From Synechococcales cyanobacterium CNB (GTDB lineage: Bacteria; Planctomycetota; Phycisphaerae; Phycisphaerales; UBA1924): a stretch of 64,000 bases of DNA. The position numbers were made by a program, and so were the translations under genes. The stretch's first letter is position 1. The number at the start of each line of letters is the position of its first letter. Shown here in pieces: positions 8,122 to 13,431 of the stretch. The notes beneath the pieces were generated by a model. The model made no database searches, had not been told where the DNA came from, and saw only the letters and a list, made by a program, of their open reading frames with translations. The DNA lies in assembly GCA_030263455.1 (NCBI GenBank), contig SZOZ01000009.1, positions 124,001 through 188,000 of the forward strand, given 5' to 3'.

Positions 8122-8354
8122 AGTGTCGCCCCGCCGCGGCCGGGGGGCCGGGGCGGGGGGCGGCATTGTACGCCGGGGGGATGGGGGAGTCCCGGAGCAC
8201 GCCGACACGGGCGGAGGCAAGGGCGGCAACGGCCTCACGCCAGCCCGCGCGGGCGAACTACTCCGCGGCGTGGGCGTAGGCTGCAGTGTCGCCATGGGTC
8301 GGGCCGGGGCATTTCTCCCGCGTCGGCAGGCCCAGGATCGCAGGGAGCAATCGC

Positions 8355-9362
8355 ATGAGCACCATCGACCGGCAGCCGCGACTGATCGGTCTCTCGCTCG
8401 CACCGCTCGCGGCCGCCCTGACGGCATTGGGCGTGCTGCTCGGCTCGTGCGAGCGGTCGGAGAACAGACGTGCTGCCGACGCCTTGCCGACGCCGGGCGC
8501 GCTACGTGTCGTCGTCACCATCCCGCCACTTGCGGGGTTGATCGCCCCGTTGTTGCCGGAGGGGTCGCAGGTTCGTGCGCTCGTGCCGCCGGGCGCCTCG
8601 CCGCACGGGTATGAACTCACGCCCGACGATGCCGCCGCGCTCGCCCGGGCGGACCTCGTCGTCTACGTCGGCCTCGGGCTGGAGCCGGGTGTGGTCAAGG
8701 CCCTCGCGCGACGCGGCAAGGACGCGCCGGCTCAACTCTGCATGGCCGAAGCCCTGGGCATCGGCGGCGAGCCTCAGCACGACCACGCCCACCACGAACA
8801 CGACGACGACTGCGACCACGGACCCATCGACGAGCACCTGTGGCTGGACCCGGTGCTCGTCGCGTCGTTCGTGGGCGAAGCAGAGGAGGCGATCTCCGCT
8901 CTGCTCCGCGTCCGGTCCGCACCGGCGGATGCGCTGGTTGCCGTCGAGCGTGGTGCGGCGTTGCTTCGCACCAGCGTCGCCGAGGTGGACGCGGTGTACC
9001 GCGAACGCCTCTCGCCGTACCAAGGCGCGAAGATCGTGACGCAGCATGCGGCGTGGGGACGGCTTGCTGACCGCTACGGCCTCGTCGTCGCCCGCGTCAT
9101 CATGCCCGTCGAGGCGCACGACCCCAGCCCCGCCGACCTCGCAGCCGCCGCCGAGTCGATCAAGCGCGAGGGCGTCGCGGCCGTCTTCTCCGAGCCGCAA
9201 CTCAACCGCGCCGCGGCTGAGCGGCTCGCGCGGCTGGCCGGCGTGCCCTTCGGCGAGATCGACCCCGAGGGCGACTCCGACTGGGTTCGCCTCATGCTCC
9301 GCAACCTCGACGAAATCGAGACTAGGCTCGCCGAAGCCACTGCGCCGGCCGACGCGGGGTGA
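8355..9362 (+). CDS. znuA: Zinc ABC transporter substrate-binding lipoprotein
   Basis: 335 residues, cluster A-I metal-binding protein. The ATG at 8355 has AGGGAGC upstream. The N terminus is hydrophobic and ends in LLGSC, a lipobox, so it is likely membrane anchored. Metal-ligand regions are visible: SPHGYELTP, then a His/Asp-rich loop (HDHAHHEHDDDCDHG), DEHLWLDP, TQHAAW and the late acidic region IDPEGDSDW. The His-rich loop is typical of zinc rather than manganese binders. First gene of a znuA-znuC-znuB operon. No clear Zur box was recognised upstream. Confidence 0.93.
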   Translation: MSTIDRQPRLIGLSLAPLAAALTALGVLLGSCERSENRRAADALPTPGALRVVVTIPPLAGLIAPLLPEGSQVRALVPPGASPHGYELTPDDAAALARADLVVYVGLGLEPGVVKALARRGKDAPAQLCMAEALGIGGEPQHDHAHHEHDDDCDHGPIDEHLWLDPVLVASFVGEAEEAISALLRVRSAPADALVAVERGAALLRTSVAEVDAVYRERLSPYQGAKIVTQHAAWGRLADRYGLVVARVIMPVEAHDPSPADLAAAAESIKREGVAAVFSEPQLNRAAAERLARLAGVPFGEIDPEGDSDWVRLMLRNLDEIETRLAEATAPADAG

Positions 9363-9383
9363 ATCGGCCGTAGACTCCACGCG

Positions 9384-10259
9384 ATGCCCGACGCGCCAGC
9401 GAACGCCGTCCCCGCGATCGACTACGTCGGCGTCGGCTTCGCATACCCGCGCCCGGTCGCGGGCGGCGACGGCGGCGCGGTCGAGGCCCTGCGCGACATC
9501 ACCCTCCGCGTCGAACCCGGCGAGCGCCTCGGCATCCTCGGCCCCAACGGCGCTGGCAAGACCACGCTCATGCGCATCACGCTCGGCCTCCTGCCGTGCC
9601 AGCGCGGGACGGTGCGCATCTTCGGACGCACGCCCGAGCAGGCACGGCGCGAATGCCTCATCGGCTACGTGCCCCAGCGGAGCGACGCGGAGCTTGCCTT
9701 CCCGATCAGCGTGCGGCAGGCGGTCGAACTCGGGCCGGCGGGGAGGCTGACAGGCTTCGCGCGGCTCTCGGTCGAGGACCGGCGGCGCGTCGAGGAGTCC
9801 ATGTCGCTGCTCGGCATCGCGGGCCTCGCCGAGCGGCCGGTCGGCAAACTCTCCGGCGGGCAGTTGCAGCGGACGCTCATCGCACGCGCGCTCGCCGTCG
9901 GCGCGCGAGTGCTGCTGCTTGACGAGCCGACCGTCGGCATCGACGTGACCGGCCAGCGCCGCTTCGCCGACCTGCTCACCAGCCTGCGCGACCGGCTCGG
10001 CGTCACCATCGTCGTCGTGAGCCACGACCTGCGCACGATCGCTGCCGCGAGCGACCGCGTCGCCTGCCTCAGCCGCACGCTGCACTCGCATGTCGCGCCA
10101 GAGGGGCTGACTCCCGCGGTGCTGGCCGAGGTCTTCCGGCACGACGTCGAGGGCGTTTTCGGCGAGGTGCATGTGGACGCCCACCCCGCCGCGGGCTGCG
10201 ACGACCCCGCGCACCACCACCACGACCTCGACCACGCCAAGGGGGGGAGCGGGGCATGA
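9384..10259 (+). CDS. znuC: Zinc ABC transporter ATP-binding protein
   Basis: 291 residues. Walker A GPNGAGKTT, Q-loop region VPQRSDAE, signature LSGGQLQR, Walker B VLLLDEPT and switch His in VVSHDLR. The C-terminal tail is rich in His and Asp (HHHHDLDH), in keeping with a zinc system. It energises uptake by the membrane partner that follows; the two genes overlap by 4 nt (ATGA). TAGACT lies 7 nt before the ATG, so an internal leaderless promoter is possible in addition to read-through from znuA. Confidence 0.95.
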   Translation: MPDAPANAVPAIDYVGVGFAYPRPVAGGDGGAVEALRDITLRVEPGERLGILGPNGAGKTTLMRITLGLLPCQRGTVRIFGRTPEQARRECLIGYVPQRSDAELAFPISVRQAVELGPAGRLTGFARLSVEDRRRVEESMSLLGIAGLAERPVGKLSGGQLQRTLIARALAVGARVLLLDEPTVGIDVTGQRRFADLLTSLRDRLGVTIVVVSHDLRTIAAASDRVACLSRTLHSHVAPEGLTPAVLAEVFRHDVEGVFGEVHVDAHPAAGCDDPAHHHHDLDHAKGGSGA

Positions 10260-11161
10260 GAACGCTCGAATACCTCTTCGGCGCGCCGGAACTCCGGGCC
10301 ACCTTCTGGCCGCCGGTGCTGGTGGGACTGCTGGTCGGCACGCTCTGCTCGGCTCTCAGCGTGCCCGTCGTGCTCAAGCGCATGGCGTTCGTGGGGCAGG
10401 GCGTGAGCCACGCGGCCTTCGGGGGCGTGGGCGTGGCGCTCGCGCTCGGCATGGTTGCTGGGTGGGCGACGCAGGGCGCCGGCCTGCTCGCCGTCGTCAC
10501 GCTCTTCTGCGTCGCCGCCGCGCTCGGCATCGCCTGGCTCAGCGACCGGCCCGGGGCGCGCACGGACACGGCCATCGGCATCGTACTCGCCGCGTCGATG
10601 GCGGTCGGATTCCTGCTCATCCGCGGCGTGGCGGGCAGGATGCGCGACGCGGGACTACCCCCCCCCCCGGGCGTCGAGTCCATCCTTTTCGGCTCGGTGC
10701 TGAACGTCGGCACCGCGGACGCCGTGCTGGCCGCCATCGTCACTGCGGGTGTTCTTGCCACGGCCTGGTGGTACCGCCGCCCGATGCTCTTCTGGGCGTT
10801 CGACGAGGGCGCGAGCGCAGCGTTCGGCGTGCCCTCGCACGCCATGCGATCCCTGCTGCTCATCGTTCTCGCGCTCGCCATCGTCGTCACCATGCGCCTC
10901 GCCGGCGTCGTGCTCGCCACCGCTCTCCTCGTTCTCCCCGGCGCGGCGGCGCTCGAACTGAGCGACCGCCTCCGCCCTGTCTACGCCATCGCGCTCGCCG
11001 TCGGTGTGCTGGGCGTCGCCGCCGGACTTGTGCTGAGTTTCGAGATGAACTGGCAGCCAGGCCCGAGCATCGTTCTTTCACTGACAGCGATGTTCGTCGC
11101 GGCCCGAGCCTGCTCGACCATCCTCGCCCGGCGCGCGACCCAACAGGAGAGACCCGCATGA
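10256..11161 (+). CDS. znuB: Zinc ABC transporter permease
   Basis: 301 residues with about eight membrane segments, ABC-3 permease family. The typical GQGVSHAAFGGVGVALAL motif early in the chain contacts the ATPase. It overlaps znuC (ATGA) and the next small gene (ATGA), so the three are translationally coupled. An 11-nt C run at 10658-10668 sits in frame and encodes LPPPPG in a loop after membrane segment 4; loss or gain of one C would truncate the permease. Confidence 0.94.
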   Translation: MRTLEYLFGAPELRATFWPPVLVGLLVGTLCSALSVPVVLKRMAFVGQGVSHAAFGGVGVALALGMVAGWATQGAGLLAVVTLFCVAAALGIAWLSDRPGARTDTAIGIVLAASMAVGFLLIRGVAGRMRDAGLPPPPGVESILFGSVLNVGTADAVLAAIVTAGVLATAWWYRRPMLFWAFDEGASAAFGVPSHAMRSLLLIVLALAIVVTMRLAGVVLATALLVLPGAAALELSDRLRPVYAIALAVGVLGVAAGLVLSFEMNWQPGPSIVLSLTAMFVAARACSTILARRATQQERPA

Positions 11162-11343
11162 AGGCCGAAACGATCCTCGCCGAGCTGAACCGGCTGCGCA
11201 AAGACCTCGACGAGGACCCGAGCGACGTCGAGTGGCTCACGCTGCACCATGTCTTCTGCTTCGTCTCCTACAAGATGGGCGAGTTCCAGAAGTACCTCGA
11301 CGAGCAGGCCGCGCAGGGGGCGTTCGACGAGTTCGAGGATTGA
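11158..11343 (+). CDS. Small acidic protein coupled to znuB
   Basis: 61 residues (MKAETILAELNRLRKDLDED...), predicted helical, acidic, soluble, ending in EFED. Its ATG overlaps the znuB stop by 4 nt, the same arrangement as between znuC and znuB, and codon bias is that of a real gene. No family was recognised. It contains two His and one Cys (LHHVFC) that could bind metal, but this is only a suggestion. Position implies a link to zinc uptake or its control. Confidence 0.7.
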   Translation: MKAETILAELNRLRKDLDEDPSDVEWLTLHHVFCFVSYKMGEFQKYLDEQAAQGAFDEFED

Positions 11344-11370
11344 TCGTGTTGCGACGGTCCGGACCACCGT

Positions 11371-11991
11371 ATGGAACCCTCTTTGGATACTCTCTCGCAC
11401 GACCGTTTCCGCGCCGCACTGCGTGTCGTCGCGTTCCTGAACCTCGCTTACTTCGGCGTCGAGTTCGCGGTCGCCGTCTCCATCGGCTCCGTCTCGCTGT
11501 TCGCCGACAGCGTTGACTTCCTCGAAGACGCCGCCGTCAACTTTCTGATCCTCGCCGCACTCTCCTGGTCGCCCCGCAACCGTGCCCGCGTCGGCATGGC
11601 TCTCGCCTGCATTCTGCTCGTACCCGCGCTCGCCGCGCTCTGGACGGCGTGGCGCAAGATCGCGCACCCCGTGCCGCCCGCGCCGTACCCGCTGACTGCG
11701 ACCGGCGGCGGCGCGCTGGCCGTGAACCTCTTCTGTGCATTCCTGCTCGCTCGGTTCCGCACCCACTCGGGCAGCCTCACCCGCGCGGCGTTTCTCTCGG
11801 CACGCAACGACGCTCTCGCCAACGTCGCGATCGTCGCCGCCGGACTTCTGACGCTCGTTCGCCCTTCCATCTGGCCGGACCTCGTTGTCGGCGTCGGCAT
11901 CGTCGCCATCAACGCCGGGGCGGCCTGGGAGGTCTGGGGTGCGGCCAGACGCGAGTACCGCGACGCCACGCCGCACCAACCGCACCCGTGA
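11371..11991 (+). CDS. Cation diffusion facilitator-type transporter (short)
   Basis: 206 residues with about six membrane segments. SVSLFADSVDFLEDA matches the CDF signature in segment 2 (usual form SxSLxADSxHxLxD), with Asp where zinc carriers often have His, and ARNDALANVAIV matches segment 5. The C-terminal cytosolic metal-binding domain of full-length CDF proteins is absent; the chain ends about 20 residues after the last membrane helix. It lies 27 nt after the zinc uptake genes, so a role in zinc or another divalent metal balance is likely. The direction and ion are not proven. Confidence 0.75.
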   Translation: MEPSLDTLSHDRFRAALRVVAFLNLAYFGVEFAVAVSIGSVSLFADSVDFLEDAAVNFLILAALSWSPRNRARVGMALACILLVPALAALWTAWRKIAHPVPPAPYPLTATGGGALAVNLFCAFLLARFRTHSGSLTRAAFLSARNDALANVAIVAAGLLTLVRPSIWPDLVVGVGIVAINAGAAWEVWGAARREYRDATPHQPHP

Positions 11992-12014: not shown

Positions 12015-12042
12015 TTGCGTAGGGAAATCGTCGGACGATAAT
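12015..12042 (+). promoter_or_regulatory. Promoter of the structured RNA upstream of ilvA
   Basis: TTGCGT, 16 nt, then GATAAT, five of six matches to the -10 consensus. Transcription would begin near 12050, just upstream of a chain of stable hairpins that ends in an intrinsic terminator at 12341-12373. Confidence 0.55.
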
Positions 12043-12239
12043 GCCGACATCGCGGCCAGCGCCGACCCGGCCGAGGGCGTGAGAACCACTCCCCGAGGCG
12101 GCCGGACGACCCGCGACGACCGCAGGGCGAACGCCTTGCGGGCGGTGTGCCCCGGGCGACGGCCCGGGGGGGAGAAGCCCGGCGGCGGCGTGTGCAGCGC
12201 CGCGCGGCTGGGATGGCTCTTTCTGAAGGAGGTGATCCA

Positions 12240-12275
12240 GTGAAGCATGCCTGTACGCGAGGGCTGCCCCGCTAG
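12240..12275 (+). CDS. Possible 11-residue leader peptide
   Basis: GTG-started frame of eleven codons ending in TAG, placed 7 nt after an extended Shine-Dalgarno with 13-15 nt complementarity to 16S rRNA, far stronger than any other in the window. The stop lies in a hairpin (12264-12285). Codons include one Thr but no run of Ile, Val, Leu or Thr, so classical amino-acid attenuation is not obvious. It may instead not be translated at all and serve as an rRNA-pairing site. Confidence 0.3.
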   Translation: MKHACTRGLPR

Positions 12276-12340
12276 AAGCGGGCAGACCGACGGGTTGCCC
12301 GCGGTGCAGCCCACAGCGACTCCTACGGAGTCCGAATCTC

Positions 12341-12373
12341 GGCCGCCGTCCCTTTCCGGGCGGCGGCCTTTTT
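12341..12373 (+). terminator. Intrinsic terminator before ilvA
   Basis: Perfect 8-bp stem GGCCGCCG/CGGCGGCC with a 12-nt loop, followed by TTTTT. It ends 23 nt before the ilvA ATG, so it either closes an independent RNA or acts as an attenuator of ilvA. Confidence 0.75.
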
Positions 12374-12396
12374 CGTCCACCCGCTATCGTTTGCCT

Positions 12397-13431
12397 ATGC
12401 CCGCCGAAGGCACGCCTCCCGACGCTTCGCTGCGCGACCGCGTCACCATTGACGACGTCCGCGCCGCCGCGGCCCGGCTGCACGGCGTGGCGCACCGCAC
12501 GCCGGTGGTGTCGTCGCGCTCCATCGACTTCATCACGGGCACACTCGCCCGCTTCAAGTGCGAGAACCTCCAGCGCGTCGGCGCGTTCAAGTTCCGCGGC
12601 GCGTACAACGCCATCGCCTCGCTCAGCGACGACGCACGCCGCGCCGGCGTGCTCGCTTACTCCAGCGGCAACCACGCCCAGGCGGTCGCGCTCGCGGCGT
12701 CGCTGCTCGGCGCGCCCGCCGTCATCGTGATGCCCGAGAACGCCCCGCGCGTGAAACTCGCGGCGACGCGGGCGTACCTGGAGCGCGCGCCGAAGGGGAG
12801 CGAGGTCGTGCTCTACGACCCCGCGACGACGGTGCGCGAGGAACTCGGGGCGCGCCTGGCCGCCGAGCGCGGCATGACGGTCGTGCCTCCCTACGACCAC
12901 CCCGCCGTCATCGCCGGCCAGGGAACCGCGGGGCTCGAACTCTGCGAGGACGCGGGGCCGATCGACGTGCTGCTCGTTCCGTGCGGCGGCGGGGGCTTGC
13001 TCTCGGGGTGTGCCGTCGCCACGCGGGCGGTGTGCCGCGCCTGCCGAATTATCGGCGTCGAGCCGGAACTCGCCGACGACGCCACCCGCAGTTTCCGCGA
13101 CGGCGTGCTGCGCACCGTCCGCAACCCGCCGACGATCGCCGACGGCGCGCGCACCCCGTCCCTCGGCCGCCACACCTTCGCGCTCGTCACGCGCCACGTG
13201 GACGACATGATGACGGCGAGCGAAGGCGAGATCGCCCGTGCCGCATTGCTGGCCATGGAACGGCTGAAACTCGTCGTCGAACCGACCGGCGCGCTCGCCC
13301 TCGCGGGCCTCCTCCGCCTCGCCCGCGAGCAGCCCGACGAAGTTGCCGGCCGAACCGTCGGCGTCATCATCAGCGGCGGCAACCTCGACCTGTCAACGGT
13401 GCCCGAGCTGATCCGGCTGGCGGAGTCCTGA
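12397..13431 (+). CDS. ilvA: Threonine/serine dehydratase (PLP-dependent)
   Basis: 344-residue fold-type II PLP enzyme that deaminates threonine to 2-oxobutanoate, the entry to isoleucine. The Schiff-base Lys lies in GAFKFRGAYN, the cofactor loop in SSGNHAQA, the phosphate-binding Gly loop in CGGGGLLSG and the C-terminal SGGN. There is no C-terminal ACT regulatory domain, so it resembles catabolic TdcB or serine racemase more than allosteric IlvA. ATG 12397 is chosen by homology; TATCGT lies 6 nt before it with no Shine-Dalgarno. The frame is open back to ATG 12247, but that 50-residue extension runs through the terminator and is low-complexity. Its stop codon lies in a dispersed repeat. Confidence 0.88.
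   Translation: MPAEGTPPDASLRDRVTIDDVRAAAARLHGVAHRTPVVSSRSIDFITGTLARFKCENLQRVGAFKFRGAYNAIASLSDDARRAGVLAYSSGNHAQAVALAASLLGAPAVIVMPENAPRVKLAATRAYLERAPKGSEVVLYDPATTVREELGARLAAERGMTVVPPYDHPAVIAGQGTAGLELCEDAGPIDVLLVPCGGGGLLSGCAVATRAVCRACRIIGVEPELADDATRSFRDGVLRTVRNPPTIADGARTPSLGRHTFALVTRHVDDMMTASEGEIARAALLAMERLKLVVEPTGALALAGLLRLAREQPDEVAGRTVGVIISGGNLDLSTVPELIRLAES

Follow-up and report, generated by a model that had tools for sequence, protein, structure and literature searches.

The window analysed here (the whole stretch of 64,000 nucleotides) contains a structured RNA that, as comparison of sequences indicates, is conserved in its class and, in diverged form, elsewhere in Planctomycetota. A long Shine-Dalgarno (SD) sequence within it runs into a mini-ORF, real by the same comparison, whose early codons are joined to a hairpin of the 5' domain by a covarying pseudoknot. 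The RNA appears to be a free-standing transcript, and is apparently present once per genome in many planctomycetes. From an anatomy established by comparison among relatives we infer a function: the best explanation that we can offer, and it is a tentative one, is that the molecule would serve both as a small RNA and as a minimal mRNA, entrapping 30S subunits and so sensing initiation capacity or translation. The observation from which this work starts, an earlier note made from the letters of the sequence, is real and is stronger than first described; the note overlooked the pseudoknot, a precedent in Alphaproteobacteria, and the fact that start and stop codons are conserved.

Structure and conservation of the RNA

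When the sequence of the window was checked, the parts described in the earlier note (promoter-like pair, hairpins, 15-mer complementary to 16S rRNA, GTG frame, and a terminator 23 nt ahead of the ATG at 12397) were all found where it had placed them (Table 1). Two of them need qualification. The promoter-like pair is present, and TG, CGATA and ATCGCG columns at the promoter and start region are conserved up to 85% in a 30-locus alignment, but a scan with the strict sigma-70 consensus gave no promoter at 12015..12042, and we regard the pair as a weak candidate. The 11-codon GTG frame, said to come directly after the 15-mer, in fact overlaps it, because the 15-mer ends in the G with which GTG begins. 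The region folds with a z-score of -3.12 (an equally good fold in 1 of 100 shuffles), P1 having a slightly different base in the window's own copy from that in relatives.

Table 1. Features of the RNA locus, in window positions.
Feature	Position	Strand	Basis
Promoter-like -35/-10 pair, TTGCGT-N16-GATAAT	12015..12042	+	TTGCGT at 12015-12020, GATAAT at 12037-12042
Predicted transcript of ~325 nt, from ATCGCGG start region to terminator T-run	12049..12375	+	Promoter position, conserved ATCGCG, terminator
Predicted 5' hairpin, GAGAACC loop region	12069..12103	+	GAGAACC in many own-family loci; MFE fold
Predicted P1 hairpin, flanks GACGACCG...CGGGCGGTG	12115..12147	+	CG-A-stem fold in 28/37 extracted relatives
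H1 hairpin, loop YGACGG	12150..12169	+	Both-sided changes in 7/7 pairs
H2 hairpin with two stems; its apical loop, GTGCAG at 12192-12197, forms one pseudoknot strand	12178..12212	+	Both-sided changes in 6/11 pairs
Extended SD AAGGAGGTGATCCAG, perfectly complementary to the 3' end of the genome's own 16S	12226..12240	+	Sequence; own 16S
Mini-ORF GTG..TAG, 11 codons, MKHACTRGLPR	12240..12275	+	TAG at 12273-12275; start and stop kept in relatives
CTGTAC, pairs with H2 loop 12192-12197 as pseudoknot	12251..12256	+	Permutation test of self versus permuted pairing
H4 stem, GGGCTGC with GCAGCCC, around stop codon and H5	12261..12312	+	97.1% of cells paired; both-sided changes in only 1/8 pairs
H5 hairpin, second YGACGG loop	12278..12302	+	Both-sided changes in 6/6 pairs; 82.6% of cells paired
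Intrinsic terminator, stem 12341-12368, T-run to 12373	12341..12373	+	Stem and T-run; T-rich hairpin at matching place in 30-locus alignment

A blastn search with the RNA (337 nt) gave matches in 41 of 101 genomes (its own included) at E <= 2.2e-8. In an alignment of 26 sequences (A2), helices H1, H2 (two stems), H4 and H5 are paired in 94.2% of cells, compared with 38.9-47.5% when the partners are slid, a contrast that is helped by the structure having been drawn from the A2 sequences themselves. The both-sided changes, found in 20 of the 32 pairs with the observed values reached in 0 of 500 shuffles, remain informative, because they do not depend on the structure having been read from A2; they bear out the expectation of the earlier note that hairpins and SD would prove to be conserved with covariation.

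Covariance models extended the distribution. Model R1 matched 130 of 397 genomes of the class, and R2 (built from 42 wider hits, two of them fragments) 97 of 392 genomes of the phylum, both at E <= 0.01 and both with strict filters, so that these counts are minima. Of the R2 genomes, 66 score at least 35 bits, and 46 of these lie outside the window's class. With six candidates per genome scored, there was a single match in 126 of the 130 genomes (R1) and in 95 of the 97 (R2). When R2 was given 26 of the 80 scan loci described below, non-planctomycete loci that share the SD scored 14.8-27.7 bits in 17 cases out of 18, and one (L191) 34.6 bits; R2 hits in the phylum below 35 bits are therefore not safe by themselves, and we have relied on the stronger hits, or on those in which SD, ORF and pseudoknot could be read.

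The loops of H1 and H5 (12157-12162 and 12288-12293) are alike, YGACGG, with GACG invariant in the 26 close rows of A2. In alignments A3 and A4, GACG is found in 32/40 and 19/36 rows for H1, and in 21/40 and 26/36 for H5. Pairing of these loops with CCGUC of 16S rRNA was considered and is not claimed, because H1 has no GACG in 17 of the 36 distant rows; the complementarity amounts to only 4-5 nt. Likewise rejected was a resemblance of GGGCGGTGTG to the complement of the 16S 1392-1406 region, to which the relatives' consensus, GGGCGATGAG, is a poorer fit.

Extended SD, mini-ORF and pseudoknot

The earlier note had compared the 15-mer with the consensus 16S 3' end. The genome's own 16S tail reads ..CUGGAUCACCUCCUUUC, so the match is exact, and the duplex is computed at -27.3 kcal/mol. 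With A or G allowed at position 10, this genome has two copies of the 15-mer, of which one is the 16S complement and the other is the present site; the reversed pattern, used as a control, has none. Of the 101 genomes searched, 90 have the 15-mer at least once, commonly in one or two copies. A set of 106 unique loci was collected with a pattern in which positions 3-9 and 11 were fixed, with A/G at position 2 and A/G/T at position 10, and with ORFs of up to 30 aa (no match was obtained for 16 of the 152 locus ids); the invariance of positions 3-9 and 11 in this set is by construction, and is not evidence. Position 10 is A or G, both of which can pair with the 16S U, in 104 of the 106, and in 103 there are 12-15 consecutive nucleotides able to pair with the 16S tail, counting G-U, with mismatches in some. 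Pairing is not confined to the part of the tail that an SD normally uses, but takes in its GAUC side; outside the class the match is often down to about 11-13 nt.

An internal SD mismatch, AAGCGAGGTG, is found in one family (f4: G063, G067, G071, G079, G083) and one genus (g77: G081, G440), whose RNAs have AAGCGAGGTGRTCCAG. The 16S tail is canonical in G063, G079, G081 and G440 (a 16S match was not found in the other three), so there is no compensatory 16S change in these four, and the perfect 15-mer is evidently not indispensable. Nor is the use of an SD as such special here, since 23 of 49 predicted ORFs of the window have an SD-like motif (7-15 in three control windows). Planctomycetes are counted in PMC5397173 with the phyla in which only a small share of genes have an SD.

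The case for the mini-ORF comes from an unconditioned count of ORF lengths. Of 102 loci, 14 had no RRGGAGG at the expected place and five more were removed as duplicates or as lying near a contig end; of the 83 distinct loci left, six had no start codon in range. In all of the remaining 77 an in-frame stop comes at 6-19 codons, compared with 3 and 5 of the 77 in frames +1 and +2. Start codons are GTG in 66, TTG in 6 and ATG in 5; in the 106-locus set (ORFs of up to 30 aa), stops are TAA in 42, TAG in 38 and TGA in 26. When 17 of the 20 loci not counted were re-read, a mini-ORF was present in 15, mostly with the SD altered or differently placed; L266 had no start in range and L087 no GAGGTG. 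In genus g23 (L085, L094-L096) the mini-ORF is longer (18-19 aa, e.g. MSNLSQDLNKRSNDRTLRR) and the 3' hairpin region is changed.

The apical loop of H2 is complementary to a hexamer within the mini-ORF, and it is the comparison of this pairing across loci that argues for the pseudoknot. From 104 alignment rows (A2-A4) we obtained 87 distinct loop/ORF pairs, of which four were set aside for loop length; a version with loops of up to 20 nt left out nine more. The duplex energy of loops with their own ORFs was -9.25, against -7.59 with ORFs permuted among loci, for all 83 pairs, and -8.74 against -7.08 (sd 0.26) for the 74 with loops of up to 20 nt. Shared ancestry inflates such tests, and a version with one sequence per family was therefore made to limit it (n=21; -9.15 against -7.06, sd 0.50); outside the window's own family (n=44) the values were -8.39 and -6.68. 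In every version the observed value was reached in 0 of 5000 permutations; with reversed ORFs it was reached in 734 of 1000, which is not significant. Contiguous helices of at least 5 bp occur in 69 of the 74 loci (6 bp in 52) and are lacking in five, and strength is uneven, with poor pairing in, for example, L028, L128 and L252. Among the 74 there are 59 distinct best helices of at least 4 bp, such as UUCGCCGG/CUGGCGAA, ACCACC/GGUGGU, CGACCAU/AUGGUCG, CAGGUU/AACCUG and UGGACUUC/GAAGUCCG. Counted from the start codon, the helix begins at +5 to +16 in 56 loci and at +1 in seven, and the SD and start codon mostly lie within the stretch that the pairing encloses.

Extended SDs ahead of short frames are found more widely. 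A scan of named genomes for AAGGAGGTGATCCAGTG gave at least 117 stretches; the 80 loci among the matches listed are, by title, mostly from Alphaproteobacteria, the rest coming from Phycisphaerae, a Planctomycetaceae bin, Krumholzibacteriia, Acidobacteria, Lujinxingiaceae, Myxococcales, SAR92 and Nitrosomonadales. The 17-mer was single-copy in 9 of 9 carriers tested, and was found in 15 of 188 genomes in the phylum of L178 and 9 of 80 in that of L154 (reversed-pattern controls, 0 in both). The first of these phyla, that of the contigs labelled Lujinxingiaceae or Myxococcales (L178, L191, L268-L282), has ORFs of 14-24 aa, often containing ..TAGEVV... In the Krumholzibacteriia phylum (L154, L168, L283-L291, and L166, labelled Acidobacteria) the 17-mer precedes ORFs of 14-15 aa with EVA or EVV. 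There, a GGTGGYG in the ORF pairs with a downstream segment (GGTGGCG/CGCCACC in 5/10, GGTGGTG/CACCACC in L287, wobbles in L284-L286 and L288), and a hairpin loop ahead of the SD, TGGG(T/A), is complementary to an adjacent CCCAA (AGGGG/CCCC in L283); judged by eye in ten sequences, these loci may form a different pseudoknot around the same SD. Among 29 matches to the 17-mer in viral contigs (L292-L320), five (L292, L293, L298, L308, L315) carry a mini-ORF of the kind seen in Alphaproteobacteria. Frames in the remaining 24 run to 3-435 codons after the 17-mer, and 14 of these have 35-50 (e.g. MPGKHYGRGSGYMNG..), which implies that an extended SD need not block translation.

Genomic setting and possible function

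Upstream of the RNA, at 8286-11988, are ZnuABC-like zinc uptake genes and a gene for a cation-efflux protein; many loci of the same family have similar ORFs upstream, a synteny for which we claim no function. The downstream gene, which the earlier note called ilvA, does encode a PLP-dependent ammonia-lyase of the PALP family, but its best NCBIfam model is threo-3-hydroxy-L-aspartate ammonia-lyase and not biosynthetic IlvA. The note had offered two readings, one of which was a cis-acting leader in which ribosome loading on the mini-ORF sets termination ahead of this gene. In its favour, the mini-ORF stops inside a hairpin region and the terminator lies 23 nt from a gene, and a PLP-lyase-like ORF is near the RNA in 14 of 67 loci (a count that includes duplicate places, L025 being the same as L107, and an ORF 941 nt away in L017). 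That neighbour, however, is confined to the window's own family; in 19 of 39 loci the nearest predicted downstream gene (by heuristic codon-bias gene calls) is read from the other strand; and no conserved downstream gene emerged among the loci compared (67 for the PLP-lyase neighbour, 39 for strand). Because the downstream neighbour is neither conserved nor consistently on the same strand, the comparison lends no support to attenuation of the next gene, and we give this reading hardly any credence. The other reading, a trans RNA that captures the 30S subunit by its anti-SD sequence, is compatible with the findings and is the one that the anatomy leads us to favour.

In the explanation that we prefer, the exposed SD would capture a 30S subunit, while the pseudoknot and the over-long SD duplex would hinder the settling of the start codon in the P site, and the subunit would be held as an entrapped pre-initiation complex, as with the pseudoknotted S4 and S15 operators. 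Release might be brought about by a protein or other factor acting on the structured domain, or by thermal melting; one very short round of translation would then undo both the pseudoknot and the 3' hairpin, and in this way the RNA would report or buffer free 30S subunits or initiation capacity. Selection would act less on the peptide than on the act of translating the mini-ORF. We propose entrapment because, according to PMC10931766, the pseudoknotted ribosome binding sites of the S4 and S15 operators entrap 30S subunits without initiation, and because the over-strong SD of Flavobacterium rpsU is described in PMC9976891 as responding to ribosome state or being read by a subpopulation of ribosomes; the step from anatomy to entrapment is an inference. 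Counted against it are the viral frames of 35-50 codons, the SD mismatch of f4 and g77, the uneven strength of the pseudoknot, the SD-like motifs of ordinary genes in the window, and the placement of the rpsU start codon, which the extended SD still positions correctly (PMC9976891).

Rather unlikely, though to be taken seriously, is the possibility that the locus is a micropeptide gene, with a functional product of 6-19 aa whose translation is regulated by the 5' domain, pseudoknot and SD in the manner of a riboswitch or thermometer. The conserved start and stop would suit such a gene, and within the order the peptides are alike (C-T-K/R/Q-G-L); C-x-x-G-L is found in 51 of the 106 unique loci, with some of the Gly and Leu codons synonymous, C-S/T..RGG and related motifs occur in another planctomycete family, and the alphaproteobacterial analogues have recurring peptides of 14-26 aa. 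Yet the sequence is not kept across the class (MKGDKR, MPSQIGELP and MDIGKRRKLL are examples), and the Cys codon of C-x-x-G-L is TGT in 51 of 51 cases and never TGC, as would be expected if the pseudoknot, and not the amino acid, were the constraint.

The conservation of a start codon of the same class and of an in-frame stop, for which a pure decoy would have no need, also makes it improbable that the RNA acts in trans on the 16S tail with no requirement for translation, whether in quality control of the rRNA 3' end or as a decoy for an assembly factor. Its structured and apparently free-standing nature and the extension of pairing to the GAUC side would accord with such a role, but the frequent shrinkage of the match to about 11-13 nt outside the class would not. 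As to the possibility that this is simply a small mRNA whose ribosome binding site is strong and whose structure does no more than stabilise the transcript, the 14 viral matches in which the 17-mer precedes 35-50 codons speak for it; we think it very improbable, in view of the narrow range of ORF lengths and of the covarying pseudoknot over the start region, which is significant even when each of the 21 families contributes a single sequence.

Known RNA families and comparable systems

At gathering scores no Rfam 15 family lies in 12015-12397, and the five matches of a permissive search, of which CC2171 was the best, all fell far short of their cutoffs. The earlier note had been unable to match the locus to RNase P, tmRNA, 6S or SRP RNA, and the family models agree: those for RNase P, 6S and SRP RNA gave nothing here at either the gathering or the permissive threshold, and there was no tmRNA or tRNA match. 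tmRNA is likewise a structured RNA with a mini-ORF; a divergent tmRNA (RF00023) was considered and rejected, a separate tmRNA (142.1 bits) being present elsewhere in the genome. CC2171 (RF01867), a Caulobacter sRNA, has in common with the window RNA AAAGGAGGUGAUCCAGUG followed by an open GUG frame and a 3' hairpin, but its model begins just ahead of the SD and is without the 5' domain that the window RNA has. Membership was rejected at 23.5 bits against a gathering score of 75, and since the plain 16S complement of the same genome scores 21.3 bits, the match mainly reflects the shared SD. In CC2171 and in L132-L211 the Rfam 'sRNA' looks like a coding small mRNA, and the GTG frames of the alphaproteobacterial loci read MSHCHQ.., MSRVILERGVGT.. 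or MSxxKRCHLAGIAR...

Among the literature matches listed (titles and abstract openings, with few subscription journals) there was no planctomycete extended-SD mini-ORF RNA. The present RNA adds a structured family in a little-studied phylum, beyond what Rfam 15 gathering scores detect in the window, and its pseudoknot between loop and ORF, of which nature supplies dozens of compensatory variants, provides a testable handle on whether bacteria use an RNA to hold or count free 30S subunits. It is conceivable, though unlikely as matters stand, that extended-SD mini-ORF RNAs form a general single-copy class of 30S sensors in Planctomycetota, Alphaproteobacteria and the phyla to which genomes labelled Krumholzibacteriia and Myxococcales belong, in which differing pseudoknots would tie down the ORF behind an exposed, near-perfect 16S complement and the 30S subunit would be held until a signal started one tiny round of translation.

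The S4 alpha-operon and S15 rpsO operators likewise have a pseudoknot that spans the ribosome binding site (indicated by covariation in our RNA), but they are cis operators of ribosomal protein operons, whereas the window RNA has no conserved downstream gene. Flavobacterium rpsU has an extended SD in common with it, but as a cis element of a ribosomal protein gene and with no mini-ORF RNA. A close parallel is with rreB and rreR, reportedly described by Hahn et al. (2017, RNA Biol 14:1353) in Alphaproteobacteria only: these are reported to be small mRNAs bound to 30S subunits, with which they co-sediment, and to have a stability that depends on translation and peptides of 14-18 aa. What was a curiosity reported in Alphaproteobacteria now extends to further phyla. 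Common to rreB/rreR and the window RNA are a single small gene and a tiny ORF directly behind an SD that pairs with the 16S tail, with a GTG start (GTG in 66 of the 77 loci counted here) at equal spacing. In length the SDs are less readily equated: against the 15-17 nt, or about 16-17 nt, reported for rreB/rreR, the window has 15 nt exact, and 103 of the 106 loci have 12-15 nt, with mismatches in some. The peptides, by inspection, are not homologous (the MKHACTRGLPR family against MS..KRCHLAGIAR and MSRVILERGVGT), and the window RNA, unlike rreB and rreR, has an extensive 5' domain that covaries and is tied to the ORF by a pseudoknot. By analogy, the planctomycete RNA may work as rreB and rreR, CC2171 and the entrapment operators do; we make no claim of a relationship by descent.
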